A stretch of 64,000 nt of DNA from Paenibacillus brasilensis (GTDB lineage Bacteria > Bacillota > Bacilli > Paenibacillales > Paenibacillaceae). Shown here in pieces: positions 45,043 to 64,000 of the stretch; position 1 is the stretch's first letter, and each line of letters opens with the position of its first letter. A program made the position numbers and the translations under genes. The stretch covers positions 4,585,501 to 4,649,500 of the forward strand of contig NZ_CP045298.1 of NCBI RefSeq assembly GCF_009363115.1. Direction: 5' to 3'. Under the pieces are notes generated by a model, which saw nothing but the letters and a program-made list of their open reading frames with translations, was not told the origin of the DNA and searched no databases.

Positions 45043-45237
45043 CCTCAGGGATATAAGGCTTCACACTTGGATGAAATAAGGCCGGTCACTCAGGATGTTC
45101 GAATCGGGAGGGTCGTTGATGGTAAAAAATAAAGTTGTCACTTCCGGTAGTTTGATGAGTCCGTCGCTATCTGTGGAATAGTCCTGCCAATCCTCATGAA
45201 TTTTAAAGTTAATTCTTGCAATTGCCTAAAACGTCTA

Positions 45238-45267
45238 TTGTTTAACTTTGGCAACTAACATGATAAT
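45238..45267 (+). promoter_or_regulatory. Probable promoter of the fus operon
   Basis: TTGTTT (45238-45243) and GATAAT (45262-45267) are spaced 18 bases, with TG directly before the -10 forming an extended element. The transcript would start near 45274, just before the palindrome. Confidence 0.45.
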
Positions 45268-45285
45268 ATTCCAGAAAAGATTACA

Positions 45286-45305
45286 TATGTCTATACATAG
45301 ACATA
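45286..45305. promoter_or_regulatory. Perfect palindrome, candidate operator of the fus operon
   Basis: TATGTCTAT (45286-45294) and ATAGACATA (45297-45305) are exact complements around AC. The site lies 53 bases before the fusG start and just downstream of the likely promoter, a typical repressor position. The protein that binds it is not evident. Confidence 0.55.
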
Positions 45306-45357
45306 CGCAATTAAGTTGTTTTTTGTTGAAAAATGTAAAAAAAGAAAGGTGGTTTCT

Positions 45358-46128: not shown

Positions 46129-46140
46129 GGAGGGAACGCT

Positions 46141-47601
46141 GTGCTTGTTACGCATACGGATTGCCGTATTATCTCACCTGAAGGGATTATGACAAGGGAG
46201 CGTCTGGAGCGGGATGTTACGATCTTCTCCCGTATGTTGGCTCTCCGAGGAATTCCTGAAGAAGGCAGAGTGATTCTGAAGGCGGCCAATTCTTATTATT
46301 TTGTTGTGTCTCTGTTCTCCCTGTGCAACATTGCTGTTTCGGTGACTGTAGTGGACGAGCAGACTGTGCTCGATGAGGTAGCCCAAATCTATGATGAAGC
46401 GGCTGCCTGCTGCATCCTGACGGATTGCGATCTAGAACTTCCTCATGCGCTCGTTATTCTGATTCAAGATCTAATTCAAGAAGAAGCCGTACACCCGCAT
46501 TGGGTGGGAGAGCCAGAGATTGAAGCCCTCGACTTTAACAAGTGGTGCGAGAGGCCGGATGCCCTCATTCTGTATTCTTCTGGTACGACGGGAAAACCCA
46601 AGGGAATCGTGAAAGCTGGTTCAGCTTTCATGGAGAATATCAGGCACTCTATACACGCCATGAATTACTTACCGTCTGACCATATGCTCCCCGTTGTACC
46701 GTTTTCTCACTTCTATGGTATTTCACTCATCTTCTCCTGGTGGTTAACCTCATGTTCTCTAATTATCTGCAATCCTAAAAACCTCTGGAGCGTCATTGCA
46801 AGTATTACGAAAGACCGGGCGACGGTCGTAGACGCCAACCCCTCTGCTTTTTACACCTTGTTGCGTATGTTAAGCCGAAAACCCGAACAACTGGAAATGG
46901 TCAAGGAATCTCCGGTGCGCATGTGGTGCGTAGGCGGTTCCCCACTTACCCAAGACCTCGAAGAGAAATTTAACAACATATTTGGACAGCCCCTGCTGAA
47001 TGGTTACGGCCTTTCTGAATTGGGCAACGTTACGCTGGGGACGCTGGAGTGTCCGCAAGGCTGTGGCAAACCGTTGCCTGGTGTGGACCTGAAAATACTT
47101 GATGCTGCTGGTAGCCAGCAGGCGGATGGCATCGTAGGCGAAGTGTGGATACGCAGTGCCGGATGTATGGAAGGTTACCTGAATCGTCCAGACCTGACGC
47201 AGTCCGTTCTACAGGACGGCTGGTTCAAGACAGGGGATCTGGGCTATCTGGATGACGAAATGCTGTATGTCATTGGCCGCAGCGGTAAGACGGTCAACCG
47301 GATGGGCTATATGGTATCTCCGGTCTATATCGAGGACCGGATTGGTTCGCTAGGATACCGATCCTGCGTGATCACCCTGGAGGACGAGGCTAAAGGAACA
47401 TTGCTTATCGCATACATCGAAGGCGAATCCTCGCAGGCCTTGTCTGTACTCCGCAAAGAAATGAATCGGGTACTTCCCTCATACATGTTTCCCGATCTGT
47501 TGCTTCCGCTTGCCCATTTTCCATTAAATCGGAATGGAAAAGTAAACCGGCTGGAAATGGAGCGCATTGCCCTGGAGAAAGTTGCTTCTCGCAAAGTGTA
47601 A
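46141..47601 (+). CDS. fusF: Acyl-AMP/CoA ligase of the fus operon
   Basis: The 486-residue ANL-superfamily adenylating enzyme starts at GTG 46141 behind AGGAGGG. Core motifs are LYSSGTTGKPKG (A3), NGYGLSELGNVTL (A5), KTGDLGYLDDE (A7) and the C-terminal catalytic Lys region RNGKVNRLEM (A10). It should activate a carboxylic acid as acyl-adenylate, either the starter unit or the finished fatty acid, and hand it to CoA or a carrier protein. No carrier-protein gene is seen in the operon. Confidence 0.87.
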   Translation: MLVTHTDCRIISPEGIMTRERLERDVTIFSRMLALRGIPEEGRVILKAANSYYFVVSLFSLCNIAVSVTVVDEQTVLDEVAQIYDEAAACCILTDCDLELPHALVILIQDLIQEEAVHPHWVGEPEIEALDFNKWCERPDALILYSSGTTGKPKGIVKAGSAFMENIRHSIHAMNYLPSDHMLPVVPFSHFYGISLIFSWWLTSCSLIICNPKNLWSVIASITKDRATVVDANPSAFYTLLRMLSRKPEQLEMVKESPVRMWCVGGSPLTQDLEEKFNNIFGQPLLNGYGLSELGNVTLGTLECPQGCGKPLPGVDLKILDAAGSQQADGIVGEVWIRSAGCMEGYLNRPDLTQSVLQDGWFKTGDLGYLDDEMLYVIGRSGKTVNRMGYMVSPVYIEDRIGSLGYRSCVITLEDEAKGTLLIAYIEGESSQALSVLRKEMNRVLPSYMFPDLLLPLAHFPLNRNGKVNRLEMERIALEKVASRKV

Positions 47602-47646
47602 CAAGATATTTACCAAAAACCGCATAAAGGAAAGGGAGGATGTATC

Positions 47647-48870
47647 ATGAGTATGAATCCGGAACTGGAAAAAAATACGCTTTTTTTGGAAAGGCATGAG
47701 GCAATTCTGAAGTGCCTTAATTATTTGATGGAGTATCGGCAGGAAGTGATGGATATTCTCACGCAATTTTCATCCTATCGGGCCGCCGATGCAGAAATTG
47801 ATTCCACGATCCTCACACTCCAAGGTGCTTTGCAAGAAGTGCAGACCTATCAGCCAAGCTGGCAACGATCTATGGCTGTATTCATGCCTTCCAACGTCGT
47901 TTTGTACTCCTATGCATTATACCTTTTGCTTCCGTCTCTGTACGTTGAAAAGATAGACTTTCGCCCTTCTTCTCACGTAAACGAGTACGTTAATATGCTG
48001 CATGAGAAGCTTCATGCTGTACATGGATTACCCATCTGTATTCGTAAAGTTAGCCAGAAGGAGTTCTTGGAGAATTCAGTTATGCCAGCTGATATTGTGG
48101 TGTTCACTGGGAGCTATACCAATGCGGAGAAGATCAAAAAACAAATCCGAAAAGAGCAACTCTACATTTTCTACGGACAAGGGATAAATCCTTTCATTAT
48201 CGGACCCGATGCCGATCTGGAATTGGCGGTTACCGATGTGACTCGAATGAGATTGTACAACTCCGGACAGGATTGCCTGGGACCTGACATCATTCTGGTG
48301 CATCAGGATGTGAGGGAGAGCTTTAAAAACCTGCTGATTGAGCGGCTTGACCAACTCGTGTTTGGAGCCAACAATGATCCGAACGCGAACTATTCCCCTA
48401 TTTTCTATAAAGACACGCTGTATTCGGTTTCTGAATATTTTAATACAAATGATAAGTTTATTATTTATGGCGGTGGCATCGATTTCCGTACGAAAAAGAT
48501 GGAGCCGACGATTGTATATAGCGAACTAGATCAGGATTTGGAGATTATCGAGTATTTTTCACCAGTCTTCAACGTGGTTAGCTACCGAGACGACGAGCAA
48601 CTGATCAAGCGTATTTCCTCCAGTTATTTCAGTGAACGTGCGATGGGCTGCAGCTTATACGGATCTAATCACCTGGCGGACGTCCTGCGAAAGAAGCACA
48701 CGCTGACCATTAATGAGACGCTTGAGGATGTGGATCAGGGCAATAAGCCCTTTGGTGGCTATGGCACGATGTCGAACTATATTTTTTACGATTTTAAGCT
48801 CGTTTCGAAGCCCATTTTGATTTCAGAAATTGTCGCAGAATATTTGTCGGAAAAGAGGAGTTTGGTATGA
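47647..48870 (+). CDS. fusE: Aldehyde-dehydrogenase-fold protein of the fus operon
   Basis: The 407-residue protein starts at ATG 47647 behind GGGAGG. It is shorter than standard aldehyde dehydrogenases (about 480) but keeps the catalytic-cysteine region NSGQDCLGPD (Cys near residue 214) and the terminal NKPFGGYGTMSNYIFYD. The nucleotide-binding region MPSNVVLYSYALYLLLPSLYVEKIDFRPS resembles acyl-CoA reductases (LuxC/ALDH). It probably oxidises an aldehyde to an acid, or the reverse, when the omega-functional starter of the lipid is made. Its stop overlaps the start of fusD (ATGA). Confidence 0.8.
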   Translation: MSMNPELEKNTLFLERHEAILKCLNYLMEYRQEVMDILTQFSSYRAADAEIDSTILTLQGALQEVQTYQPSWQRSMAVFMPSNVVLYSYALYLLLPSLYVEKIDFRPSSHVNEYVNMLHEKLHAVHGLPICIRKVSQKEFLENSVMPADIVVFTGSYTNAEKIKKQIRKEQLYIFYGQGINPFIIGPDADLELAVTDVTRMRLYNSGQDCLGPDIILVHQDVRESFKNLLIERLDQLVFGANNDPNANYSPIFYKDTLYSVSEYFNTNDKFIIYGGGIDFRTKKMEPTIVYSELDQDLEIIEYFSPVFNVVSYRDDEQLIKRISSSYFSERAMGCSLYGSNHLADVLRKKHTLTINETLEDVDQGNKPFGGYGTMSNYIFYDFKLVSKPILISEIVAEYLSEKRSLV

Positions 48871-50567
48871 CTGCGAGCTTACTCCCCTGGGATGCCATCA
48901 TTGGCTACTTAAAATCGGCTGGGGTTCGGCATCTCTTTGGATTACCAAGTGATGATCTCAAAATCGTATCGTCACTCCCCTCGTCGGGTATGGATTTTAT
49001 TCTGTGCAAAGATCAACGTAATGCTGTGTTCATGGCAGCAGGCTATGCGCTCACAACCAACCAGATGTCTGTATGTGTTGTGGGTAAAGGCCCTGCGCTC
49101 AGTAATACACTCACGGGGCTGCTGGAAGCGAAGAACCTTGGTGCTCCGCTTTTACTTTTGGCGCTTGGCACCGGAGGAGACAAGCTGGGTACCCGATCCT
49201 TTCAGGAGGCAGATCAAATCTTACTCGTGAAGCCGCTCGTAAAATGGGCTTACCGTGTCGAGCATGTGGATCGGCTTGTATGGGCGATGGAGCGAGCGGC
49301 TTTTTTGGCCATCAATGGGGCCCCAGGTCCTGTCTATATTGAACTACCCGAAAACCTGATGGACCAGCCTGTGCCGACAGAGCTTCAGTTTATTCCGCCA
49401 GAAAAGCTTTCGTGCTCTCCGTCTCTTCGGGAGCTGGATGCGGCATGGGAGATTATCAAGACTGCTCGCAGGCCTGTCATTTTGGTCGGAGGCGGGATGA
49501 AGTCAGTTAAAAATGATGTAATTGAGATATTCGCTAATCTGCGAGGAGCAGCCTTGTTCGCAACCGCCTCGGGACGGAGTGCAATTGATGAAGACGATGA
49601 ACTCTTCTGTGGTGTTGCCGGGCTCTATACGGATCTCAGTCTGAGACAAATCTGGAAGGAATCTGATGTGGTGATTGCGCTGGGCAGCCGATTGGAAGAA
49701 ACGGCTACGTTTGAGTGGGATATTTTTCTAGAGGATACACCCTTAATTCAAGTCAATGTCGAGCTGGAGGATTTTGCACACGAATACCGGGGCGTCAAAG
49801 TGCTTGGAGATGGATATGCAGCATTAGAGCAGTGGGTTCAACGGTACAGACATAAACCTGATGGAGTGTGGCTTGAAACGATCAGAAGGTGTAAGCAGAA
49901 GGCATTCTCTAATAGAGCCATTTATATGGAGGAACTGAAAAAGGCTCCTGGAATTCACGTTCCAGAGCTGCTGGAGATCATTCAGACAGAATTTCCAGAA
50001 AAAATGGTGCTTGTTCAGGAAAATGGATTACAGGATATGTGGTCTTACTTTTATCCATATTTTTGCTTCATGCAAGGTTCTCTTTCAATTGTTCCCAGTG
50101 ACCAAACGAGCCTTGGATTCGGTGCGGCTGCTGCTCTGGGGGCAAGTGTGGCAACAGAACGTCCAGTAGTGGCACTGGTAGGGGACGGTGCGTTCAATCT
50201 CTTCTATTCGGATTTTATGACGGCGGTGCAGTATCAAATACCGTTAATCTATATCGTACTCAATAATGGCGGCTACGGTTGGCTGCAAAATCAGATGAAT
50301 TATAAGCATCTTTCGGATCAATCCTTGCCATTTGTCTCCGAGGAGGCCAAGGCAGGAATCCAAATTCCACAGTATGAGTTTGTGGAAAGTCTTGCGATCC
50401 GGAGCAAGGGGGAGGCCCGGGAACAGCTTCAGCTTGCTTGGCAAAAGTATCAGGAGAACAAGCTTGTGGTCGTCGAGGTATATGCTGATCTTGCTGATGT
50501 GCATGAGAAAATCAGTCATGTGTATGGCGACTTTCCTCTCTACGAGCAACAGGCTTCCAAGAATTAA
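48867..50567 (+). CDS. fusD: ThDP-dependent enzyme, acetolactate-synthase-like
   Basis: The 566-residue protein has the three-domain ThDP-enzyme fold: an N-terminal PYR domain (FGLPSDDLKIV), a central domain, and the PP domain with the ThDP motif GDGAFNLFYSDF through LNNGGYG. The catalytic glutamate of the family (usually in RHEQxA) appears as Asp in FILCKDQRNAVFMAAGYA. This is unusual, because that residue normally activates the cofactor. Start ATG 48867 is coupled to fusE. In the cluster it presumably works with the ALDH to make the unusual starter unit of the lipid; the reaction is unproven. Confidence 0.85.
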   Translation: MTASLLPWDAIIGYLKSAGVRHLFGLPSDDLKIVSSLPSSGMDFILCKDQRNAVFMAAGYALTTNQMSVCVVGKGPALSNTLTGLLEAKNLGAPLLLLALGTGGDKLGTRSFQEADQILLVKPLVKWAYRVEHVDRLVWAMERAAFLAINGAPGPVYIELPENLMDQPVPTELQFIPPEKLSCSPSLRELDAAWEIIKTARRPVILVGGGMKSVKNDVIEIFANLRGAALFATASGRSAIDEDDELFCGVAGLYTDLSLRQIWKESDVVIALGSRLEETATFEWDIFLEDTPLIQVNVELEDFAHEYRGVKVLGDGYAALEQWVQRYRHKPDGVWLETIRRCKQKAFSNRAIYMEELKKAPGIHVPELLEIIQTEFPEKMVLVQENGLQDMWSYFYPYFCFMQGSLSIVPSDQTSLGFGAAAALGASVATERPVVALVGDGAFNLFYSDFMTAVQYQIPLIYIVLNNGGYGWLQNQMNYKHLSDQSLPFVSEEAKAGIQIPQYEFVESLAIRSKGEAREQLQLAWQKYQENKLVVVEVYADLADVHEKISHVYGDFPLYEQQASKN

Positions 50568-50590
50568 TTTCAGCGAAGGACGTGGGTACA

Positions 50591-51832
50591 GTGAGAAGAC
50601 GTGTTGTAGTGACAGGACAGGGAGTCGTAACGCCGGTCGGGCTTAATCTTCCAGATTTCTGGAATTCACTGTTGGAAGGAAAGAGCGGAATCGGACCTGT
50701 CACTGCTTTTGATACAGCGGACATTCCGACAAAAATTGGTGCACATGTTACGGGCTTTGATCCGTTGCAATATATGAGCAAGAAGGAAGCTAATAAAGTA
50801 GCACAGTTCACCCAATTTGCCTTGGCGGCTGCCCGTCAGGCAGTCGAGCAATCTAAATTAGTGATTGACGAGCGGAATGCAAGCCGCGTGGGGGTTATTG
50901 TCGGCTCTGGAGCAGGCGGCCTCGACGTCATAGAGGAGAACTATGGGAAATTAACAAAGCTTGGTCCCAAAAGGGTTTCTCCTTATTTTGTTTCCTCGAT
51001 GATGATTAATTCTGCGCCTGGTGAAATCTCCATTGCTATCGGAGCCAAGGGACCTTCGTTTGCCGTGGTTACGGCTTGTGCTACTGGAAGTAATGCCATC
51101 GGTGAAGCATTACGTACGATCCAGTACGGCACGGCTGATGTCGTGGTCGCTGGAGGAGCAGAAGCGAATTTCAGTCAGCTTGATTTAGCATCCTTTGCGA
51201 ATATCCATGCGCTCTCCAGATGCAATGAAGAGCCGCAGAAGGCCAGTCGTCCGTTTGATGTGGACCGCGACGGATTCGTCATCGGCGGAGGAGCAGGGGT
51301 GTTGGTGCTGGAGGAGCTAGAGCATGCCTTGAACCGCGGAGCCACGATTTTGGCCGAGGTTGCGGGTTATGGATGCACGACCGATGCGTACCATATCACG
51401 GCTCCTGATCCCTCGGGCTCCGGTCCGGCGGAAGCGATCAGCATCGCTCTGCAGGATGGCGGTTTGACACCGCAGGAAATCGACTATGTCAATGCCCATG
51501 GTACGAGTACGCCGTTTAACGACCGTATGGAGATCAATGCGATTCAGAGCGTATTCGGAGCGCATGCTCCCCGTTTGGCGATATCATCTATTAAATCGAT
51601 GACAGGCCATTTAATGGGCGGAGCAGGGGCAGTTGAATTAATCGCCACTGTACAGAGCTTGCTCCACAACAAGGTACCACCGACACTCAATTGCGACAAC
51701 CCTGAAGCCCCTGAACTGAATTTTGTACCGCACGTATATCAGGAACGCGAGGTCCATGCGGCGATTAGTAATTCCTTTGGTTTCGGGGGGCACAATGTCT
51801 GTCTTGCTGTTCGCAAGTGGGAGGGGGTATAG
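50591..51832 (+). CDS. fusC: Beta-ketoacyl-ACP synthase II (FabF type)
   Basis: The 413-residue condensing enzyme starts at GTG 50591 (AAGGA 11 bases upstream; an in-frame GTG at 50582 is too close). The Cys-His-His triad is present: Cys in VTACATGSNAIGEA, His in NAHGTSTPFND and His in KSMTGHLMGGAGAVE. It extends the growing acyl chain with malonyl-ACP. No KS III (FabH) is in the cluster, so how the starter is loaded is open. The next gene, a FabZ-like dehydratase, starts four bases after the stop. Confidence 0.93.
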   Translation: MRRRVVVTGQGVVTPVGLNLPDFWNSLLEGKSGIGPVTAFDTADIPTKIGAHVTGFDPLQYMSKKEANKVAQFTQFALAAARQAVEQSKLVIDERNASRVGVIVGSGAGGLDVIEENYGKLTKLGPKRVSPYFVSSMMINSAPGEISIAIGAKGPSFAVVTACATGSNAIGEALRTIQYGTADVVVAGGAEANFSQLDLASFANIHALSRCNEEPQKASRPFDVDRDGFVIGGGAGVLVLEELEHALNRGATILAEVAGYGCTTDAYHITAPDPSGSGPAEAISIALQDGGLTPQEIDYVNAHGTSTPFNDRMEINAIQSVFGAHAPRLAISSIKSMTGHLMGGAGAVELIATVQSLLHNKVPPTLNCDNPEAPELNFVPHVYQEREVHAAISNSFGFGGHNVCLAVRKWEGV

Positions 51833-51835
51833 CCT

Positions 51836-52243
51836 GTGAGCGAAGAGCTAATCCATATCCCGGATGTGCTTCCGCACAGGTATCCGTTTCTTCTGCTGGA
51901 TGGCGTGACTGGATACGAAACGTCGCAATGGGCGAAGGGGTACAAGTTTGTTACCTGGAGTGAATGGTTTATTACAGAGGCTAGTCCATACATGCCTCCT
52001 ATGTTGATCGTGGAGTCGCTCGCACAATTGGCGGCATTCGCTGCGATTGATAAAAAAGGTATTGCATACCTGACCAACCTCAATGGAATTCGATTCCACA
52101 GCTTGGCAAAGCCAGGGGACCGAATTGATCTTTATTTTGAAGTGATCAAGCGTCGGCGGGGTTATGTACTCGGAAGTGGTCGGGCTTCCGTAGGCGATCG
52201 ATTGGTGGCTGAGGCGGAAGAAATTGTTTCACTTGGTCAATGA
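51836..52243 (+). CDS. fusB: 3-hydroxyacyl-ACP dehydratase (FabZ type)
   Basis: The 135-residue hotdog-fold protein starts at GTG 51836; its ribosome site GGGAGGGGG lies inside the end of fusC. The catalytic His is in LPHRYPFLLLDGV and the Glu in MPPMLIVESLAQLAAFA. It dehydrates 3-hydroxyacyl-ACP in each elongation cycle. Since the final lipid keeps a 3-hydroxyl, the last cycle must escape it. It precedes the NRPS gene by 93 bases containing a hairpin. Confidence 0.88.
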   Translation: MSEELIHIPDVLPHRYPFLLLDGVTGYETSQWAKGYKFVTWSEWFITEASPYMPPMLIVESLAQLAAFAAIDKKGIAYLTNLNGIRFHSLAKPGDRIDLYFEVIKRRRGYVLGSGRASVGDRLVAEAEEIVSLGQ

Positions 52244-52276
52244 CGGGGTGGAAGCGCACGTTGAACTGTCCTTTTG

Positions 52277-52306
52277 TCCTCCTGACTGCCAGTAGCAGCG
52301 GGAGGA
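52277..52306 (+). other. Intercistronic hairpin between fusB and fusA
   Basis: TCCTCC (52277-52282) pairs with GGAGGA (52301-52306), and CTGC (52286-52289) with GCAG (52295-52298). There is no T-run, so it is not a terminator. It may stabilise or process the mRNA before the NRPS gene. Confidence 0.5.
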
Positions 52307-52336
52307 TATTCACATCACGGAATAGGAGTGAATGAG

Positions 52337-55300
52337 ATGAATGACATGCAGTTATATGATTTAACAAATGCGCAGAAGCGTATATGGTATACCGAATTAC
52401 TCTACCCAGGTACGTCAGTGTCACAGCTTTCCGGTACAGCTAAGATGAAGGGTCATATAAATATCGCTGCCTTCATGCAGTCCAATAATTTGATTATCAA
52501 ACAGTATGATGCGTTCCGCATTCGTATTACCTCAGTGGATGGAGTGCCTCAGCAGTATGTCGTTCCTTATGAAGAGAGACAGTTTGAGTACCTGGATCTT
52601 ACCCACTATGAAAGTATCTCTGAGGTGGAAGCCTTACTTGAGCAACACAAAAGCAAACCCTTGCCACTGCTGGATTCTGAACTCTTCCAGTTTTTAATTG
52701 TGAAGATTAGCGAGGATGAGTATTGGATTAACACCAAGATGCACCATATTATTTCTGACGGGATCTCAATGGTGGTCTATGGCAATCAGCTAACAGCGTT
52801 TTACATGGATTTAATTCAAGGAAATGAACCGAAGCTGAACGACGATTGCTCTTATATTCAATATATTGCAGAAGAGAACGCATACGAGCTTTCGGACAGA
52901 TACCAAAAGGATAAGGCATACTGGCTGGATAAATTTTCTGATTTGCCTGAACTTACGGGTTGGAAGTCATATAATCCGTTATCTCTGAGTACCCACGCCG
53001 TTCGGGAGCATTTTACCGTGCCAGAGGTGCTATATCACGAGCTACAGGCATTTTGCCAACAGAACAGGATTTCTCTGTTCCAGTTCCTCATGGGTGCGAT
53101 GTATATCTACATACACAAAGTGACGAATCAGCCGGATGTGGTGATTGGTACTTCGCTCGCTAACCGGGGGAACAAAAAAGAGAAGCAAAAGATAGGTATG
53201 TTCGTCAGCACGGTTGCAGCCAGAGCATACGTCGAAAAGGATATGGATGTGTTGAGCTTCCTGCAGGATGTAGCCAGGGATCAGATGTCGGTCCTGCGGC
53301 ATCAGAAGTATCCATATAATCACTTAATTCAGGATCTTAGAGAAATGCATGGTAACAAGGATATTCAGCGGCTTTTTGGCGTTTCAATGGAATACCGCCT
53401 TATCAATTGGGTTGATTTGGATGACGTGTGCATTTTGATGGATTATGATTTCTGCGACGACGAAGTGAACGATTTCGTGCTTCATATCGTGGAGATCCTG
53501 GATGAAGGCGAGCTGGTACTGGATGTCGTTTATCGGACGAAGCTGTTTGAACCCAGTGAAGTAAAGGACATGGTTTCCCAGTTGCTTACGATCGCCGAGC
53601 AGATCATTCATGCACCGCAGCTTTCCATTGCAGAGGTACACTTATTGGGTGAAGCAGAAGAGCAATCCATTTTGGCTCTTTCGGAAGGCGTTGCAGTCGA
53701 TTATCCGCGTGAGAAGACAATCCATGGCTTATTCGAAGAACAAGCTGAGCGCACGCCAGATCACATAGCCGTTCAGATGGACGAGCAGAGCATTACATAC
53801 CTAGCTCTAAACGAGCAGGCTAACCAGCTCGCGAGATATTTGCGCACCGAAGGCGTTGGTGCAGATGTACTCGTCGGGATTATGGCTGATCGTTCCTTGG
53901 AGATGGTCGTCGGCATGCTGGCGGTTTTGAAGGCGGGAGGAGCCTATGTGCCCATTGATCCCGATTATCCCGAAGAACGTATCCATTATATGCTGGAGGA
54001 TTCGGGAGTCCATCTGTTGCTCACCCAAAGCCATCTATGGGAGTGCACCACATTTGGCGGAAAGCTTGTGAATCTGGACGAAGTTGCATCGTATAAAGGG
54101 GACACTTCAAATCTGGAGAGCATTTCGGGGGCGAGCAATCTTGCCTACGTCATCTATACATCGGGTACGACAGGCAAGCCAAAGGGAACGCTGATCGAGC
54201 ACAAAAATGTAGTTTGCCTGCTCTTTAATGATAAAAATATGTTTGATTTCGGTCCTCAGGATACGTGGACCCTGTTCCATTCATTCTGCTTTGACTTCTC
54301 CGTATGGGAAATGTACGGGGCATTGCTGAATGGAGGACGTCTGGTCATCGTTCCATCGCTTACCGCGAAGAGTCCAGATCGTTTCTTGCAATTGCTTAAG
54401 GACCAGAAGGTCACCGTTTTGAACCAGACGCCGACATATTTCTATCAGTTACTACAGGAAGAGCTTGGTCATCATGCGGCAGAACTGAGTCTCCGTATGA
54501 TTATCTTCGGTGGCGAGGCATTAAGCCCGGCCTTGCTCAAGGACTGGAGAACGAAGTACCCGCAAGTGCAGCTCATCAACATGTACGGCATTACCGAAAC
54601 AACCGTGCATGTAACATACAAAGAAATTACGGATCTGGAAATTGAACAGGGCCGCAGCAATATCGGTACCACGATTCCGACGCTGCGTGCATACATTCTG
54701 GATGAACAACGCCGTCCACAGCCGATTGGCATTCCAGGTGAACTCTACGTGGCGGGCGAAGGCCTGGCACGCGGCTACCTGAACCGACCGGAATTGACGG
54801 AAGAGAAGTTTGTCGCTCATCCGTTTGAAGAAGGCGAGCGTATGTACCGCTCGGGTGACCTGGCACGCTGGCTGCCGGATGGCAGCATGGAGTATTTGGG
54901 ACGGATTGACCACCAGGTTAAAATCCGGGGTTACCGCATCGAGCTGGGCGAAGTGGAAGCGAAGTTGCTCCATGCTCCGTCTGTAAGGGAGGCTGTAGTG
55001 CTCGCTCAGGAGGATGGAAGTGGACAAAAGGTGCTTGTCGGCTATTTTACAGCCGATCAGATGCTGACGGTAGGCGAATTGAGACAAGCCTTGGCGGCAG
55101 AGCTGCCAGCTTATATGATTCCGTCTTACTTTATGCAATTGGAACAGATGCCTTTGACGCCAAATGGCAAGCTGGATCGCAAAGCACTTCCGGCTCCGGA
55201 AGCCAATGTGCAGACTGGAGCAGTTTATGAACCGCCAAGGACGAAGGCTGAGGAAGCCTTGGTGTCCGTATGGCAAGGGGTGCTGGGAGCACAGCAGGTC

Positions 55301-58300
55301 GGCATCCATGATCATTTCTTCGATCTGGGTGGTGACTCCATCAAGGCGATCCAGGTATCCTCGAGATTGTTCCAAGCCGGGTATAAGCTAGAGATGAAGG
55401 ATCTCTTCAAATGTCCGACAATTGCTGAGCTAAGCCCGTATCTTCAAGCAGCCGGACGCACAGCAGAACAGGGTGAAATTAAAGGCGCAGCAGAGTTGAT
55501 GCCAATTCAGCGATGGTTCTTTGAACGTCATACAGAGGAGCCGCATCATTACAATCATGCCGTCATGCTCTATCGGAAAGACGGCTTTGATGAGGCTGCA
55601 CTCCGGTTGACGATGACCCAAATTGCTACCCACCATGACGCGCTGCGTATGATCTTCCGATCTACAGAAGCTGGTTATACAGCCTGGAATCGTGGAACGG
55701 ATGAAGGCGAGCTCTATACCTTGGATATAGCTGATGTGCGACAGGCGGATGATCAGGCTGCTGCCGTTCAAGCCAAAGCCGATGCCATCCAGGCAAGCTT
55801 CCACTTGGAAGACGGCCCACTGTTCAAGCTAGGCTTGTTCCATTGTGAAGATGGGGATCATCTATTAATTGTTATCCATCACCTTCTAGTTGACGGGGTA
55901 TCCTGGCGCATCCTGTTTGAGGACATCGCAACGGGATACGAGCAGGCGTTGAATGGACAAGCGATTGTCCTTCCACAAAAGACAGATTCGTATCTTGTAT
56001 GGTCTGAACAAGCGGCGAAGTATGCAGCAGGGCCTGCTCTGGACAAGGAGCGTGCATACTGGCAGCAGATCGAGGATACAATTCTGGCCCCACTGCCAAA
56101 AGATGAAGATCAGGAGCCGGGCACCATTCGGGATACCGAGTCGGTAACGGTAACGTGGTCTGCGCAAGAAACAGACCTGCTGCTGCGACAAGCGAACCGG
56201 GCGTATCATACGGAGACGAATGATTTGCTTTTGACTGCTCTGAGAGCAGCAATCCAGCGCTGGACAGGCATGGGACAGGTTCTGGTCAATCTTGAAGGGC
56301 ATGGACGGGAAATGATCATACCGGAACTGGATATTACCCGTACCGTGGGCTGGTTTACAACCCAGTATCCGGTTCTGCTGAACCTGCAAGACGGACAGGA
56401 AGTATCTGCACGAATCAAGCGTATTAAGGAGAATTTGCGCCAGGTTCCGCACAAGGGAATCGGCTACGGTCTTCTGAAGTATATGGCACCGGAGAAAAGT
56501 GTCGGATTCGGCATAAAGCCTGAGATTTCCTTCAATTATCTCGGACAGTTTGATCAGGACTTGGAGGGTAATGCCCTTAGCCTATCCACACATTCCGTCG
56601 GTAAGGCGCTCAGTGATCACACACCACAGCAATATGCTTTGGATGTGAATGGCATGATTGCCGAAGGCCAGCTATCACTGACGATTACGTACAGCAGCAG
56701 GCAGTATCGCGAGGAAACGGTGAGTCATTTTGCCGAATTATTACAGTCGAGTTTAAGCGAGGTCATCCGACATTGTGTGGCTCAGGAGTGCTCACAGCTT
56801 ACGCCAAGTGATATTCTGTTCCAGGGATTAACACTGGAGCAGCTTGATCAACTCACGACGCAAACGGCCCACATTGGAGAGATTGAGGATGTGTACAAGC
56901 TGACGCCGATGCAGAAGGGGATGCTGTTTCACAGTCTGCTGGAGCCGGACTCCTCTTCATACTTCGAGCAGGCTACGTTCGAGCTGCGAGGCAGCTTCGA
57001 TGTAGATATCTTCTTCGAGAGCTTCCAGGCTCTGGCACAAAGACATGCCATACTCCGTACCGGCTTTTACAACAATATCGCTGATGTACCGCTGCAAGTT
57101 GTCTTTAAGCAACGGTCAATCCCTCTGCGCTACGTAGATCTGCGTTCCGCTACGTTGCAGGAGCAAGAAGCTCAGATCAAGGCTTACACTGCTGAGGATA
57201 TGGCTAAAGGTTTCAGTTTGTCGGAGGACCCGCTGATGCGAGTAACCGTCCTGCAAACGGAGCAGAGTTCCCTGGTATTATGGAGCTTCCATCATATTGT
57301 TATGGATGGCTGGTGCATCCCGATCATTACCCAGGAGCTGTTCGATTATTATTCTGCCCTGCGCCAGCAAATGCAGCCTGTGCTGCCGCCAGCTCAGTCT
57401 TATAGCCGTTATATTGAGTGGCTTGATGCACAGGATAATGGAGAAGCTTCAACGTATTGGAGCCGATACCTCGAGGATTATGACGGGAATACCGTATTGC
57501 CGGAAGGCAAAACGAAATCTCAAGCCAAAGAAGCGGGCTATGTTCTGAATGAGCATGTTCTCCATCTGGGTGCATCCTTGACCGGTAAAATGGATGTTGT
57601 CGCGAAGCGCAATCACGTGACCGTCAACACGCTCATGCAGACAGCCTGGGGACTGATTCTTCAACGTTACAATGCCAGCTCGGATGTGGTTTTCGGCGGT
57701 GTTGTATCAGGTAGACCGGCTGAGATTGCAGGTATCGAAAATATGGTGGGTCTGTTCATTAATACAGTACCTATCCGTGTGCAGTCCTCCAAAGACGAAG
57801 CCTTTGTCGAGATCATGAAACGCACACAGGCACAATCACTGGCAGGACGTGCTTACGATACCTACCCACTGTATGAGATTCAGGGGAAAACAACCCAAAA
57901 GCAGGACCTGATTTCTCATATTATGATCTTTGAAAATTATCCGCTCGACGAACAGGTGGAGCAATCGGGTAATCAAAATGAAGACAATCTCGAAGTCGCG
58001 AACTTCACCATGTTTGAACAAACGAACTATGACTTTAACCTGGTTGTGATTCCAGGCGAGGATATCAAGGTCTGCATTCGTTACAACGCTTTGGTCTATG
58101 AGCAAGAAAGTATTGCGCGGATCGGAGATCATTTGTTGCAAATGCTCGATCAGGTAGCTACTCGTCCGCAAGCGACGATACAGGAACTGGAGATTGTAAC
58201 GCCTGAGGAACGCACGAAACTGCTTGACTGGGGCGGCAAGGCCCAAACCTATCCAAGTGATCAGGGTCTGCATACCTTGTTTGAAGAGCAGGTTGTCCGT

Positions 58301-61300
58301 ACGCCGGATAAGATTGCGGCTGTAAACGGCGACATCCAGATCACGTATCGGGAGCTGAACGAGCAGGCGAACAGGCTGGCCTCCACCTTGATAGCTCAGG
58401 GACTACGAAGTGAACAAGTGATAGGTCTGTTGGCAGACCGTTCTGTGGAGCTGCTTGTTGCCATCATGGGTGTGCTCAAAGCGGGCGGAGCCTATGTACC
58501 TATTGATCCTGAATATCCGCAGGAACGGATTCAATATATTCTCAAGGATTCCGGCGCTGAGATTCTGCTTACACAGAGCCACCTGACGGAGCTGGCTTCC
58601 TTTGATGGAACGGTTATGGAATTGGATTCCCCGCACATCTACGGAACCGGAGTGGATAATCCTAATATTCCTGTTGGAGGAAACGATCTGGTGTATTTAA
58701 TCTATACATCGGGTACAACCGGCAATCCGAAGGGAACCATGATTAACCACAAGGGGATCGTGAACTACATCTGGTGGGCCAATAAGGTCTATTGTGCTGG
58801 AAAACCAACGGATTTCCCGCTTTACTCATCCATTTCGTTTGACCTGACACTGACGTCGATCTTTACTCCATTAATGAATGGAGGATTAGTACGGATATAT
58901 GATGGTATAGATAAAGCGGAGGTTGTACAGCATATTTTGCGCGAAAATGCGGTGGATATCCTCAAGCTGACGCCGACTCATCTCAGTCTTATTAAAGATA
59001 TGGCCATCCCGGCGGAAAGTCGCATTCAGCAGCTCATTGTGGGTGGAGAGAATTTGACCACATATTTATCGAAAACCATCACAGATCTCTTTGGTGGCAA
59101 CATCAAAATCTACAATGAATACGGTCCAACCGAGACGGTCGTCGGCTGTATGATTCACCTCTACGATCCTGCGAAGGATACGCGTGAATCCGTGCCGATT
59201 GGATTGCCAGCAGACAATATATATATCCATATCCTGGATGAACAGCTCCGTCTCGTACCGTTAGGTGTGGAAGGCGAAATGTACATCGCCGGGGACGGGG
59301 TAGCCCGTGGATATCTGAACCGGCCTGAGCTTACCGCAGAAAAATTCATTAGAAATCCGTTCGCTTCGGAAGGAAATATGTATCGAACCGGGGATTTGGC
59401 TCGTCGCCTTCCTAATGGAGACATTGAGTACATTGGGCGTATTGACCATCAAGTTAAAATACGGGGCTATCGTATTGAGCTTGGTGAGATTGAAGCCAAG
59501 CTGCTGGATATTCCACTTGTCGATGAAGCTCTCGTTGTCGCGTGGGCAGATGCCCAAGGGCAGAAATCGCTATGCGCCTACTTCGTAGCTGACCAGGAAA
59601 TGTCTGTCAGTGAGCTCAGAAACGAACTGTCTGCTGAACTGCCTGCATATATGATCCCGTCTTACTTCGTCCAACTAGACGTGATGCCTTTGACACCGAA
59701 TGGCAAGCTGGATCGTAAGGCATTGCCTGAACCAAACTCAGGTGTAAAGGCAGGAGCAGACTTTACCGCTCCGCGGACGGATGTGGAGACCATTTTGGCA
59801 TCGATTTGGCAAGGTGTGCTAGGTGTGCCGCTTGTCGGCATCCATGACAATTTTTTTGAGCTCGGAGGCGACTCGATCAAATCCATTCAAGTATCATCAA
59901 GGCTTCTCCACGCAGGCTATAAACTTGACATGAAGGATTTGCTCGGCTATCCAACCATTGCAGAGCTGGCCCAGCGCGTTAACGCAGTCAGCCGAATTGC
60001 AGATCAGAGCGAGGTACACGGAGCGGTAAGACCGGGACCTGCCCAGCGCAGATTTTTCGACGAGCAGTCGACGGACCTGCACCACTTTAATCAGTCGGTC
60101 ATGTTGTACAGACGGGAAGGCTTCAATACTGATGCGCTCGCCAAGGTTGTTCGGAAAATTGCAGAACATCATGATGCACTGCGACTGGTGTTCCGCCAAG
60201 GAGAGCGGGGCTTTGAAGCCTGGAACCGCAGCTTAGGTGAGGGTGAGCTTTATAGCCTTCAGATCCACGATCTGCGGGATGAAACAGACCCGGCTTCGGC
60301 AATAGAAGCAGGTGCGGAAGCCATTCAGCGCAGCATCTCTCTCGGTAATGGACCTCTCTTAAGATTGGGCCTGTTCCGCTGCGCGGACGGGGAACATCTG
60401 TTAATCGTTATTCATCATCTGGCTGTTGATGGCGTATCCTGGCGCATCCTCTTTGAGGACCTGCAGGAAGGCTACGAGCAGGCAGCACGCGGAGAAGCTG
60501 TCAAGCTTCCGCAGAAGACGGATTCGTACCGTGCATGGGCCCAGGGAATCACACAATATGCGAACAGTCCGGAGGCTGAACAAGAACGCAGCTATTGGGC
60601 AGAGGTAGAAGGAGATGGCTTTGTCCCTCTTCCAAAAGACAAGGTAGACGGCGATCTTCTCATCAAAGACAGCGAGGCTGTTACAGTAAGATGGTCACCA
60701 GAAGAGACAGAGCAGTTCCTGAAAGAGGCGAACCGCACTTACAACACGGAAGTTAACGATCTGCTCCTGACGGCACTCGGCATGGCTGTTCACGAGTGGA
60801 CGGGGATCGAACGTGTAGGCATCCTTCTGGAAGGGCATGGACGGGAGCCTATTGTACCGGAACTGGATATCACTCGCACAATAGGCTGGTTTACAAGTCA
60901 ATACCCTGTCGCCCTTGAGATGGGAGAGAAACTGGAGATCGGCGCCAGAATCAAGCGCGTCAAGGAAGGTTTGCGTCGTATTCCTAACAAAGGTGTCGGA
61001 TATGGTATTTTGAAATATTTGAGCGACGTATCCGATGTCTCCTCCTTCTCGGCTGAACCGGAGATTATCTTCAACTACCTGGGACAGTTCGACCAGGATC
61101 TTGCGGGGGGGACGATGGAGGTATCCCCTTACTCGGTAGGACCTGCGGTCAGTGAGCAGATGGTGCAGCATCAGGCGTTGAACATTAATGGACTGATTGC
61201 CGAAGGACAACTGCACCTTTCGGTCAGCTATAACCGTCAGCAGTTCCACACGGAGTCGGTAGCGAAGTTTGTCGGCATCCTGAAGGACCGTCTCAGCGAA

Positions 61301-64000
61301 GTCATTGGACATTGTGTACGCAAGGAAAGAACGGAACTTACACCAAGTGATGTACTCCTCAAAGATATCAGCCTGGAAAAAATCGAGGAGCTGGAAGAGC
61401 AGACACGGCATATCGGCAGCATTGAAAATATGTATAAACTGACACCGATGCAAAAGGGAATGTTGTTCCACAACTTGCTGGAGCCTCATTCGGAAGTCTA
61501 CTTTGAGCAGGCCAAATTTGAAATTCAAGGAGCATTCTATCCTGAGGATTTCAAACGCAGCTTAAAGCATCTGATGAAACGGCATGCCATATTGAGAACG
61601 AATTTCCATGCCGGATGGGGCGATTTCCCTATACAGATTGTGTTCAAAGAAAGAGCGTGTGACTTCGTATACGAGGACCTGCACGAGCTGGAATCCGGTG
61701 AAATTGAAGCGCGTCTTGCAGCTTATACTGCTCAGGACAAAGCAAGAGGCTTTGATCTTGCCGAAGGAGCATTGCTGCGTGTGACCATTCTACGGACGGC
61801 AAAAGAGGCTTACCATCTGCTGTGGAGCTCTCATCACATCATTTTGGATGGCTGGAGTATGCCTCTTGTGCTTCAGGAAGTGTTTGAAACGTACGGGGTT
61901 CTGCGTGAGCAAAGGGAGCCTGAACTTCCTGCTGCTGTATCGTACAGCCAGTATATTCAATGGCTGGAGGAGCAAGGTGAGGAAGAGGCATCCTCTTACT
62001 GGAGAGGGTATCTGGAAGGCTACGAACAGCAGACGAAGCTGCCGCAGGCGATAGCACAGCCACTAGCAAAAGCGGAAGCCTACGTATCGGAGAAGCTTGT
62101 ATTCACGTTGGATGCGGAACTGACCGAGCGGTTGGAACAAGTGGCCAAGCAGAACCAGGTAACGATGAACACGCTGATGCAAGCAGCCTGGGGAATCGTG
62201 TTGCAGCGCTACAATAGAAGTCAGGATGTCGTCTTCGGAAGTGTGGTATCGGGAAGACCTGCCGAGATTCCGGGTATCGAAAGCATGATCGGTCTCTTCA
62301 TTAATACGGTTCCGGTTCGGGTACAGGCAGAGGGAAGCGATACGTTCTCCCATGTGATGAAAAGACAGCAGGAATTATATTTGGCAGGACATGCTTACGA
62401 TTCCTATCCGCTCTATGAGATTCAAGCACAGAGCGAACAGAAGCAAGATTTAATTTCTCATATTATGGTATTCGAGAATTACCCGGTAGAGGAGCATCTG
62501 GAAGAGAAAATTGCCAGTGAAGAGGCTGAATACAAAATTACGGATGTTCAGATGTTTGAACAGACGAATTATGATTTTAACCTTATTGTGCTGCCGGGCC
62601 GTAATCTGGAGTTCTTGTACCGTTACAATGCCCGTGTCTATGATCAGGAGAGCGTGGAACGGATTCAAGGGCACTTAATGAAAATTCTGGAAAATGTATC
62701 TGTTCATCCTGCCATCCGCATTGATGAGCTGGAGCTGATCACGCCGGAAGAGAAATCGCAGATTATAGAGGTGTGGGGCGATACAGCAGCTCCTTATCCG
62801 CGTGAGAAGACCCTTCACGGCATATTTGAGGAAAAAGCGGCGCTCACACCGGATCGTACAGCACTTATCTATGGCGAAACGAAGCTTACCTACGGAGAAC
62901 TTCATCGGCAGGCGAACCGCCTCGCACGTACGTTGTGTGACCAAGGGGTCAAACCGGACCAGCCGGTCGGCATCATGGTTGAGCGCTCGCTTGAGATGAT
63001 CATCGGCATCCATGCCATTCTAAAAGCGGGTGGGGCCTATGTACCGATTGATCCGGAATTCCCGGAAGATCGTATTCGCCACATGCTGGAGGATTCGGGT
63101 GCGAAGCTTCTGCTGACGAAAAATCATCTCAAAGATCGTTTTCCGTTTGCTGGCACGCTCCTGGCACTTGATGACCCGCAGGCGTATCATGCGGATGACT
63201 CGAATCTGGAGCTACTCGCGGGGCCGGAGCATCTGGCGTATATCATTTACACGTCAGGTTCAACGGGCAAGCCGAAAGGTGTAATGATTGAGCATCGCTC
63301 TGCCGTCCATACGCTGAGCCAGTTGGAAGCTGAATATCCGATGTTGGCAGGCGACCGATTCCTGCTTAAAACGACATTCACATTTGACTTCTCCGTGCCG
63401 GAGCTGTTCTGCTGGTTCTTTGGGCAGGGAACCCTCGTGATCCTGCCGCAGGGCGTGGACAAAGATCCGGTGGCACTGCTGGAGGCCGTGGATACGAGCC
63501 GTATCACGCATCTCAATCTGGTGCCGTCGATGCTCAGTGTTCTTGTTCAATATTTGAAAGAAAGCGGCAGCCAAGGATTCCTTACTTTGAAATACCTGTT
63601 TGCCTGCGGCGAGACGCTGCCTGCCAAACTTGTGGAAGAGTACTATAAAGTATCTCCATACGCAGTGCTGGAGAACATCTATGGTCCTACCGAAGCGGCC
63701 GTATATGCGACCCGATATACAACGAGCCTTGAGACTGCTGCTCTAACGTATGTGCCTATCGGTAAACCGTACGCTAACGTCCAAGTATGGATGATGGACA
63801 GTGCTGCTCAGGTATCACCTGTGGGTGTACCGGGAGAACTCTGCATTGCAGGCGAAGGGGTAGCGCGAGGGTACTTCAACCAGCCGGACCTGACGGCAGA
63901 GAAGTTCATTCCTCACCCGTACAAACCGGGAGCACGGATTTACCGGACGGGCGATTTGGCCCGATGGCTGCCAGACGGGAATATTGAGTATTTGGGACGG
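52337..64000 (+). CDS. fusA: Lipopeptide NRPS, fusaricidin-synthetase-like, 3' end outside window
   Basis: ATG 52337 (AGGAG eight bases upstream) opens a frame that runs 3,888 codons to the window edge. Domains in order: starter-type C (residues 1-455, HHIISDG); A1 (about 465-960) with code DFWNIGMVHK, the Thr code; T1 (LGGDSIKAIQ, Ser1001); E1 (about 1053-1500, HHLLVDGVSW, EGHGRE, FNYLGQ); DCL-type C2 (LTPMQKGMLFH, HHIVMDG); A2 with DLTKIGEVGK, the Asn code; T2 (Ser2513); E2; DCL-type C3; A3 (from about 3488) with DFPNFCIVYK up to the visible part, which I recall for Ala in FusA module 6. The last code residue (Lys) is assumed. Predicted product: acyl-D-allo-Thr-D-Asn-Ala. Canonical FusA has Thr-Val-X before these three; here they are absent. 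Confidence 0.88.
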   Translation, partial: MNDMQLYDLTNAQKRIWYTELLYPGTSVSQLSGTAKMKGHINIAAFMQSNNLIIKQYDAFRIRITSVDGVPQQYVVPYEERQFEYLDLTHYESISEVEALLEQHKSKPLPLLDSELFQFLIVKISEDEYWINTKMHHIISDGISMVVYGNQLTAFYMDLIQGNEPKLNDDCSYIQYIAEENAYELSDRYQKDKAYWLDKFSDLPELTGWKSYNPLSLSTHAVREHFTVPEVLYHELQAFCQQNRISLFQFLMGAMYIYIHKVTNQPDVVIGTSLANRGNKKEKQKIGMFVSTVAARAYVEKDMDVLSFLQDVARDQMSVLRHQKYPYNHLIQDLREMHGNKDIQRLFGVSMEYRLINWVDLDDVCILMDYDFCDDEVNDFVLHIVEILDEGELVLDVVYRTKLFEPSEVKDMVSQLLTIAEQIIHAPQLSIAEVHLLGEAEEQSILALSEGVAVDYPREKTIHGLFEEQAERTPDHIAVQMDEQSITYLALNEQANQLARYLRTEGVGADVLVGIMADRSLEMVVGMLAVLKAGGAYVPIDPDYPEERIHYMLEDSGVHLLLTQSHLWECTTFGGKLVNLDEVASYKGDTSNLESISGASNLAYVIYTSGTTGKPKGTLIEHKNVVCLLFNDKNMFDFGPQDTWTLFHSFCFDFSVWEMYGALLNGGRLVIVPSLTAKSPDRFLQLLKDQKVTVLNQTPTYFYQLLQEELGHHAAELSLRMIIFGGEALSPALLKDWRTKYPQVQLINMYGITETTVHVTYKEITDLEIEQGRSNIGTTIPTLRAYILDEQRRPQPIGIPGELYVAGEGLARGYLNRPELTEEKFVAHPFEEGERMYRSGDLARWLPDGSMEYLGRIDHQVKIRGYRIELGEVEAKLLHAPSVREAVVLAQEDGSGQKVLVGYFTADQMLTVGELRQALAAELPAYMIPSYFMQLEQMPLTPNGKLDRKALPAPEANVQTGAVYEPPRTKAEEALVSVWQGVLGAQQVGIHDHFFDLGGDSIKAIQVSSRLFQAGYKLEMKDLFKCPTIAELSPYLQAAGRTAEQGEIKGAAELMPIQRWFFERHTEEPHHYNHAVMLYRKDGFDEAALRLTMTQIATHHDALRMIFRSTEAGYTAWNRGTDEGELYTLDIADVRQADDQAAAVQAKADAIQASFHLEDGPLFKLGLFHCEDGDHLLIVIHHLLVDGVSWRILFEDIATGYEQALNGQAIVLPQKTDSYLVWSEQAAKYAAGPALDKERAYWQQIEDTILAPLPKDEDQEPGTIRDTESVTVTWSAQETDLLLRQANRAYHTETNDLLLTALRAAIQRWTGMGQVLVNLEGHGREMIIPELDITRTVGWFTTQYPVLLNLQDGQEVSARIKRIKENLRQVPHKGIGYGLLKYMAPEKSVGFGIKPEISFNYLGQFDQDLEGNALSLSTHSVGKALSDHTPQQYALDVNGMIAEGQLSLTITYSSRQYREETVSHFAELLQSSLSEVIRHCVAQECSQLTPSDILFQGLTLEQLDQLTTQTAHIGEIEDVYKLTPMQKGMLFHSLLEPDSSSYFEQATFELRGSFDVDIFFESFQALAQRHAILRTGFYNNIADVPLQVVFKQRSIPLRYVDLRSATLQEQEAQIKAYTAEDMAKGFSLSEDPLMRVTVLQTEQSSLVLWSFHHIVMDGWCIPIITQELFDYYSALRQQMQPVLPPAQSYSRYIEWLDAQDNGEASTYWSRYLEDYDGNTVLPEGKTKSQAKEAGYVLNEHVLHLGASLTGKMDVVAKRNHVTVNTLMQTAWGLILQRYNASSDVVFGGVVSGRPAEIAGIENMVGLFINTVPIRVQSSKDEAFVEIMKRTQAQSLAGRAYDTYPLYEIQGKTTQKQDLISHIMIFENYPLDEQVEQSGNQNEDNLEVANFTMFEQTNYDFNLVVIPGEDIKVCIRYNALVYEQESIARIGDHLLQMLDQVATRPQATIQELEIVTPEERTKLLDWGGKAQTYPSDQGLHTLFEEQVVRTPDKIAAVNGDIQITYRELNEQANRLASTLIAQGLRSEQVIGLLADRSVELLVAIMGVLKAGGAYVPIDPEYPQERIQYILKDSGAEILLTQSHLTELASFDGTVMELDSPHIYGTGVDNPNIPVGGNDLVYLIYTSGTTGNPKGTMINHKGIVNYIWWANKVYCAGKPTDFPLYSSISFDLTLTSIFTPLMNGGLVRIYDGIDKAEVVQHILRENAVDILKLTPTHLSLIKDMAIPAESRIQQLIVGGENLTTYLSKTITDLFGGNIKIYNEYGPTETVVGCMIHLYDPAKDTRESVPIGLPADNIYIHILDEQLRLVPLGVEGEMYIAGDGVARGYLNRPELTAEKFIRNPFASEGNMYRTGDLARRLPNGDIEYIGRIDHQVKIRGYRIELGEIEAKLLDIPLVDEALVVAWADAQGQKSLCAYFVADQEMSVSELRNELSAELPAYMIPSYFVQLDVMPLTPNGKLDRKALPEPNSGVKAGADFTAPRTDVETILASIWQGVLGVPLVGIHDNFFELGGDSIKSIQVSSRLLHAGYKLDMKDLLGYPTIAELAQRVNAVSRIADQSEVHGAVRPGPAQRRFFDEQSTDLHHFNQSVMLYRREGFNTDALAKVVRKIAEHHDALRLVFRQGERGFEAWNRSLGEGELYSLQIHDLRDETDPASAIEAGAEAIQRSISLGNGPLLRLGLFRCADGEHLLIVIHHLAVDGVSWRILFEDLQEGYEQAARGEAVKLPQKTDSYRAWAQGITQYANSPEAEQERSYWAEVEGDGFVPLPKDKVDGDLLIKDSEAVTVRWSPEETEQFLKEANRTYNTEVNDLLLTALGMAVHEWTGIERVGILLEGHGREPIVPELDITRTIGWFTSQYPVALEMGEKLEIGARIKRVKEGLRRIPNKGVGYGILKYLSDVSDVSSFSAEPEIIFNYLGQFDQDLAGGTMEVSPYSVGPAVSEQMVQHQALNINGLIAEGQLHLSVSYNRQQFHTESVAKFVGILKDRLSEVIGHCVRKERTELTPSDVLLKDISLEKIEELEEQTRHIGSIENMYKLTPMQKGMLFHNLLEPHSEVYFEQAKFEIQGAFYPEDFKRSLKHLMKRHAILRTNFHAGWGDFPIQIVFKERACDFVYEDLHELESGEIEARLAAYTAQDKARGFDLAEGALLRVTILRTAKEAYHLLWSSHHIILDGWSMPLVLQEVFETYGVLREQREPELPAAVSYSQYIQWLEEQGEEEASSYWRGYLEGYEQQTKLPQAIAQPLAKAEAYVSEKLVFTLDAELTERLEQVAKQNQVTMNTLMQAAWGIVLQRYNRSQDVVFGSVVSGRPAEIPGIESMIGLFINTVPVRVQAEGSDTFSHVMKRQQELYLAGHAYDSYPLYEIQAQSEQKQDLISHIMVFENYPVEEHLEEKIASEEAEYKITDVQMFEQTNYDFNLIVLPGRNLEFLYRYNARVYDQESVERIQGHLMKILENVSVHPAIRIDELELITPEEKSQIIEVWGDTAAPYPREKTLHGIFEEKAALTPDRTALIYGETKLTYGELHRQANRLARTLCDQGVKPDQPVGIMVERSLEMIIGIHAILKAGGAYVPIDPEFPEDRIRHMLEDSGAKLLLTKNHLKDRFPFAGTLLALDDPQAYHADDSNLELLAGPEHLAYIIYTSGSTGKPKGVMIEHRSAVHTLSQLEAEYPMLAGDRFLLKTTFTFDFSVPELFCWFFGQGTLVILPQGVDKDPVALLEAVDTSRITHLNLVPSMLSVLVQYLKESGSQGFLTLKYLFACGETLPAKLVEEYYKVSPYAVLENIYGPTEAAVYATRYTTSLETAALTYVPIGKPYANVQVWMMDSAAQVSPVGVPGELCIAGEGVARGYFNQPDLTAEKFIPHPYKPGARIYRTGDLARWLPDGNIEYLGR

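Follow-up and report, generated by a model that had tools for sequence, protein, structure and literature searches.

The fusaricidin synthetase FusA of Paenibacillus polymyxa is a nonribosomal peptide synthetase (NRPS) of six modules, with epimerization (E) domains in modules 2, 4 and 5 (PMC10562733). The lipopeptides of Paenibacillus are reported to contain 6 to 13 residues (PMC8621861). NRPSs are known to evolve through module loss: paenidepsin (pdn) clusters without modules 5 and 6 occur in Paenibacillus (PMC13036774), and nodularin derived from microcystin by a two-module deletion (PMC8097286). Natural recombination of NRPS genes tends to fall in the core of the adenylation (A) domain, and the C-A linker and the A-sub/T interface are spared (PMC8097286). 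The short synthetase described here is an extreme variant of module loss; neither a trimodular FusA nor two fus clusters in one genome seem to have been described in the part of the published literature that was searched.

The window analysed is the whole stretch of 64,000 nt from Paenibacillus brasilensis contig NZ_CP045298.1 (positions 4,585,501-4,649,500 of the forward strand; genome G000), and coordinates follow its numbering unless a genome position is given. It contains, on the + strand, a FusA-type synthetase open reading frame which begins with a GTG codon at 52328, occupies the window to its end (52328-64000) and stops 1320 bp beyond it (genome position 4650820; L031:18320). The frame of about 13 kb has no internal stop or frameshift and encodes 4330 aa. 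Five condensation-type, three AMP-binding and three PP-binding domains and one thioesterase (TE) domain were identified with Pfam, in the arrangement Cs-A(Thr)-T-E / C-A(Asn)-T-E / C-A(Ala)-T-TE. The starter condensation domain (Cs, 52349-53671) is followed by the N-terminal part of the first A domain (53675-54136), by the remainder of that domain, carrying the Thr code, together with its T domain (54148-55483), and by an E domain (55484-56818). A C-A(Asn)-T-E module (56888-61357) and the C-A part of the Ala-type module (61427-64000) come next, all on the + strand; beyond the window the last A domain is followed by T and then TE, reaching 65179.

Each of the five C/E domains has the HHxxxDG motif, each of the three T domains has GG[DH]S, and the TE has GYSLGG. 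The specificity codes, derived by alignment at nine positions (the tenth was excluded), are DFWNIGMVH, DLTKIGEVG and DFPNFCIVY, which we take to specify Thr, Asn and the fusaricidin Ala type, respectively. A preliminary description of this DNA had given the layout as Cs-A-T-E, C-A-T-E and C-A with Thr, Asn and Ala codes, in agreement with these domains, motifs and aligned codes. The Cs is 91-92% identical to the starter domains of P. terrae, P. maysiensis, P. ottowii and Paenibacillus sp. BJ-4, which places it among the FusA-type starter C domains.

Upstream from the synthetase, also on the + strand, lies the six-gene fatty-acid cassette of fus clusters in its fixed order (45316-52243): a FabI-like enoyl-ACP reductase (45316-46128; the start codon was assigned mechanically and the family match begins at residue 17), an AMP-dependent acyl ligase (46141-47601), an aldehyde dehydrogenase/LuxC-like acyl reductase (47647-48870), a thiamine-diphosphate (TPP; acetolactate synthase-like) enzyme (48867-50567), a FabF-like ketoacyl synthase (50582-51832) and a FabZ-like dehydratase (51836-52243). 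None of the six genes has an internal stop, and counterparts were found in all 16 other fus loci compared (G390, G376 and G378 lie outside that set). Their products are changed at 0, 0, 2, 1, 2 and 2 otherwise invariant positions, within the range of the other loci. The upstream flank of the operon (44250-45315, + strand) starts where homology to the canonical fus loci begins and forms the left edge of the ectopic block described below. A scan for sigma-70-like promoters over 44200-45400, which is a weak test, yielded no match on the + strand and two on the - strand, fewer than in shuffled sequences.

The TPP enzyme of the cassette was found (E up to 1e-150) in 19 of 394 family genomes including that of P. 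brasilensis, the only one with two copies. Six C-A modules were counted in 14 of the 18 other genomes (G060, G017, G059, G063, G027, G045, G025, G026, G018, G024, G016, G390, G376 and G378) and seven in two (G007 and G012); the count is incomplete in the last two, where the gene runs off its contig (G022) or contains N gaps (G062). Among the cassette-bearing genomes with countable modules, that is, all except G022 and G062, no other trimodular gene was present. Some of the six-module genes have irregularities of their own: the gene of G024 (L110/L111) has an in-frame TAA stop inside the fourth A domain, the third-module A domain of G060 (L092) is partial, with a match of about 285 aa, and the third-module A domain is weakly matched in G390, G376 and G378 (L136-L141), three genomes of another genus.

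The breakpoint, the selection tests and the main trees were worked out with nine six-module relatives, the set being without G024, G062, G007, G012, G016, G022, G390, G376 and G378. In all nine, an E domain comes after each of A2, A4 and A5, and the six A domains have Thr, Val-type, variable, Thr, Asn and Ala-type codes; this matches FusA of P. polymyxa (PMC10562733) and the six-module plan assumed in the preliminary description. The short synthetase departs from that plan, having three modules with E domains in modules 1 and 2. Its cluster shares with the P. polymyxa-type fus clusters the order of the cassette, the Cs, the Thr, Asn and Ala modules and the TE, and is unlike them in the number of modules (three, not six), in the E domain of the first module and in its ectopic site. 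Compared with G059, the locus aligns in two pieces, 45196-55200 with the cassette and Cs-A1, and 53699-65397 with A4-TE. Apart from a single in-frame gap, which amounts to 10,740 bp absent relative to G059, it is colinear with the nine six-module genes, and the long aligned pieces are 86-94% identical at the DNA level to ten polymyxa-group six-module clusters.

The join was located by comparison with A1 and A4 of the nine relatives. In 90-nt intervals up to 54184 the best identity was 0.90-0.97 to A1 and 0.36-0.78 to A4; in the interval 54185-54274 the values were 0.89 and 0.98, and from 54275 onward 0.47-0.77 and 0.93-1.00. Diagnostic columns, consistent in at least seven of the nine relatives on both sides, were inspected over the range 53900-54420. 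From 53902 to 54136 all diagnostic bases are of the A1 type with the exception of 53932 and 54096 (A4 type) and of 53950, 53953 and 54057 (neither), and from 54148 onward 100% are of the A4 type. Since the last A1-diagnostic base is 54136 and the next A4-diagnostic base is 54148, the crossover is most simply placed in the tract 54137-54147 (+ strand), directly before the A3 motif YTSGTTGKPKG. A longer homologous parent and a single in-frame breakpoint, which characterize module deletion in an NRPS, are both found. By this comparison the specificity residues, the A-sub, T and E domains are those of module 4, and the C-A linker is retained with its own Cs.

The preliminary description had proposed a fusion of the start of module 1 to module 4 onward through one homologous crossover inside A1/A4. 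The fusion is upheld by the colinearity and by the switch in similarity, and the crossover by the single breakpoint in the diagnostic bases; alignment of the A domain with reference A1 and A4, the check suggested at the time, led to the tract 54137-54147. The breakpoint had been placed near 54650, a position ruled out by both the 90-nt intervals, which are nearer to A4 from 54185, and the diagnostic bases: the true switch is about 500 bp upstream. The step in GC content on which that placement relied is roughly right in its numbers (0.517 at 53700-54136, 0.481 at 54148-54600 and 0.553 at 54650-55400), but it does not mark the join and was rejected as a sign of the crossover, which lies elsewhere.

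The structure and the origin of the short synthetase, as read from these alignments, appear close to certain. For the locus as a whole, natural derivation from the six-module fusaricidin synthetase, leaving three modules after one A1/A4 crossover, is also a probable explanation. The in-frame crossover deleted what followed in module 1, all of modules 2 and 3 and the first part of module 4, three module-lengths in total. Cs (52349-53671), with the C-A linker that belongs to it in module 1, was thereby joined to A4-T4-E4, and modules 5 and 6 and the TE were kept, the Asn module representing ancestral module 5 and the Ala-type module ancestral module 6.

In the pdn clusters, too, a Paenibacillus lipopeptide synthetase has lost entire modules, but there the missing part is located behind the A-T linker of module 4 (PMC13036774), whereas the fus join lies inside the A core, half of the modules are gone and the starter module itself is fused. 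As with nodularin, a peptide assembly line has been naturally shortened by module deletion; that case is cyanobacterial and concerns two genes, mcyA and mcyB (PMC8097286), whereas the fus event took place between two Thr A domains of a single gene. The breakpoint resembles the known hotspot in that it lies inside the A core near a conserved motif, with the C-A linker and the A-sub/T interface kept, and differs from it in that there the substrate is exchanged, whereas here the substrate is the same and three module-lengths are lost (PMC8097286).

The preliminary description had also raised the possibility that a six-module gene was collapsed during assembly at its repeated Thr A domains. A likely collapse of this kind is seen in the G062 draft, in which Cs-A is connected with the final two modules through runs of ten N, and A1 and A5 of the seven-module gene of G000 (see below) are 87% identical, with an exact run of 80 bp. 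In the nine six-module relatives, however, A1 shares 63-64% identity with A4, and exact runs between the two extend to 16-29 bp at most; exact repeats within the gene reach 23-24 bp in G059, G045 and G060; there is no N at the junction; and the genome, in two contigs, carries an intact NRPS frame of 8985 aa despite internal repeats of up to 89 bp. Because of the low A1/A4 identity, the short repeats and the intact 8985-aa frame in a two-contig genome, a collapse is highly improbable and, as far as the sequence tells, the deletion is very unlikely to be an artefact. The synthetase might instead have been trimodular from its origin, with no deletion at all, and in keeping with this no six-module version of the ectopic copy was found in G000; against it stand the A1/A4 mosaic with its single breakpoint and the six C-A modules common to the distant relatives G016, G390, G376 and G378. 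Since these distant relatives share six C-A modules, three modules are the derived state, and an origin without deletion is improbable in the extreme.

The genome has two fus clusters. The short one, at 4.63 Mb, is a second copy at an ectopic site; the canonical locus lies at 2.36 Mb (G000:C1:2366421-2393375; L033, L034) and was recognized by synteny over about 20 kb upstream with G063, G060, G027 and G007 and over about 20 kb downstream with G063. The synthetase of the canonical locus has seven modules, of which 2, 4 and 6 contain E domains, and its codes were assigned to Ser, Val, Val-like, Ser, Ser, Asn and Ala. By colinearity its predicted product would be a guanidino-lipoheptapeptide; no such product of a fus locus was found in the part of the published Paenibacillus fusaricidin literature that was searched.

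Homology of the short cluster to canonical loci extends over 44250-65397 only, and then over 71740-73303 and an rRNA operon. The flanks were best matched by G045 among the seven genomes searched, its own included (94-99% in the main matches), and in G045 the sequences matching 44154-44250 and 80207 onward are about 158 bp apart. Since G045 thus has the site without the block, it is most simply proposed that a block of about 36 kb, comprising the fus cluster, later insertions and the rRNA operon, was inserted at the ectopic site. The last 1.4 kb of the block (78784-80225) match another region of the same genome (5244468-5246175). The right edge of the block, the region behind the synthetase and the G045 site were searched for tRNA genes; none was found at these three places, and integration at a tRNA gene was rejected.

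Other rearrangements were observed in and around the block. An insertion of 6.34 kb (65397-71740; L031:18397-L032:5240) starts 77 bp behind the synthetase stop. It holds a group II intron RNA with a reverse transcriptase, genes for a zinc alcohol dehydrogenase and an IS110-type transposase, and an ORF that weakly matches a regulator. To the left, a sucrose-6-phosphate hydrolase/fructosidase gene is broken (43042-44156), a 2.3-kb stretch of G045 (L135:3320-5628) is absent at 44154, and a sigma-54-type DagR-like regulator is split over two frames (40686-42718).

In the trees, G045 is the fully supported sister of the A4-TE part, and the Cs-A1N part falls in another position, some forks being unresolved; the different placements of the two parts indicate that the short copy is a mosaic. 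Within the cassette, identity to the canonical copy is 99.0-99.7% at 47250-47550 and 51150-51750, where the best of six six-module loci reaches 91.0-93.3%. The segment 46950-47250 is 99.3% identical to the canonical copy, yet G045 is also 98.7% identical there, and the remaining segments of the cassette are 84.7-97.0% identical to the canonical copy. The two synthetase genes have in common an exact stretch of 236 bp near the 3' end. These near-identical tracts and the exact stretch point to gene conversion between the two fus clusters.

The A4-TE part has a dN/dS of 0.076-0.109 against the nine relatives, and its unique changes (80 synonymous, 27 nonsynonymous) are distributed as in five of these relatives pooled (515 and 161; p = 0.81). 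For the Cs-A1N part the counts were 35 and 21, against 81 and 20 in the pooled relatives (p = 0.022, one of three tests), with no significant difference from its own A4-TE part (p = 0.11). Strict-unique changes in the Cs were 2 synonymous and 6 nonsynonymous, against 65 and 14 for the nine relatives summed. Of 186 positions that do not vary among 18 other starter domains, six are altered in the Cs (I53N, F254L, R368C, T371M, G377D and D401V), against 0-3 in each of those 18, a table that excludes G376 and in which close pairs such as G059/G060 and G016/G022 mask each other's changes; the fairest comparisons are the lone branches G017 (one change) and G045 (none). No clear excess of unique changes was found in the other domains or in the six cassette genes, and the Cs has the clearest excess. 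Gene conversion from the seven-module copy as source of the Cs changes was unsupported, the residues matching in 2 of 15 unique Cs-A1N positions. The changes are consistent with either adaptation to a new acceptor or a decay starting in the Cs, and the constraint on the rest of the short synthetase may predate the deletion.

If the assembly line is active, the cassette would still make guanidino-hydroxypentadecanoate (GHPD), which the Cs would load on Thr; the E domain would yield D-allo-Thr, module 5 would add D-Asn and module 6 Ala, and the TE would release GHPD-aThr-Asn-Ala as the acid or as a 10-membered lactone. Guanidino-hydroxypentadecanoyl-D-allo-Thr-D-Asn-Ala, linear or lactone, is a plausible product on the evidence of domain order and codes, and with three modules a hexapeptide is not expected by colinearity. 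Hydrolysis may be favoured because the lactone would, by our own count, be 10-membered. The calculated [M+H]+ values are 602.387 for the acid and 584.377 for the lactone; as a control, the calculation gave 931.561 for fusaricidin LI-F07a, for which 931.81 is printed (PMC10562733). A guanidino-lipid fragment of fusaricidin is reported at about m/z 256 (PMC10562733).

Activity as a lipotripeptide synthetase is, in our estimate, slightly favoured. In engineered FusA, inactivation of module 1 or 5 lowers activity slightly and that of module 6 raises it, but antifungal activity is lost when module 2, 3 or 4 is inactivated, so the antifungal activity of the tripeptide is uncertain (PMC10562733). This result was counted against function, together with the Cs changes, which may mean decay, and with the missing + strand sigma-70-like match.

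Two further readings accept the deletion as real. The truncation could have happened in a donor lineage, the trimodular cluster being acquired ready-made with the rRNA operon; this variant, compatible with the derivation from a six-module synthetase preferred here, accords with the ectopic fus and rRNA operon block and with the mosaic history of the gene. The tracts at least 99% identical to the canonical cluster and the 236-bp stretch suggest, on the contrary, a cohabitation of the two clusters with time for deletion in place, and no second trimodular gene was met among the countable cassette-bearing genomes; a donor truncation is held only tentatively. The synthetase might also be a decaying remnant that makes nothing useful, the cell being served by the seven-module locus while the Cs accumulates damage. 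Such a reading would account for the six changes at otherwise invariant Cs positions and agrees with the presence of a second synthetase, with the 6.34-kb intron/IS insertion just behind the gene and with the loss of activity in the engineered module 2, 3 or 4 mutants (PMC10562733). It is countered by 13 kb free of stops and frameshifts, by the retention of all catalytic motifs and by the absence of a clear excess of unique changes elsewhere in the gene and the cassette, and we regard it as a real possibility, somewhat below an even chance.

If the enzyme works, a natural half-length fusaricidin synthetase would make a guanidino-lipotripeptide, the shortest known Paenibacillus lipopeptide; its Cs, which now delivers to the carrier and E domain of what was module 4, would be in the course of adapting to this new acceptor; and three- and seven-module synthetases with sequence-exchanging cassettes would reside in one cell. 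We place this combined reading just short of an even chance. The gene offers a starter C domain joined by nature to an internal module, with the breakpoint resolved to about 10 bp, a 13-kb frame open and the checked motifs all kept. It lends itself directly to asking if an assembly line still works after being cut within the A core, upstream of A3, how the FusA TE acts on a tripeptide, and whether a starter domain adapts or decays after fusion.
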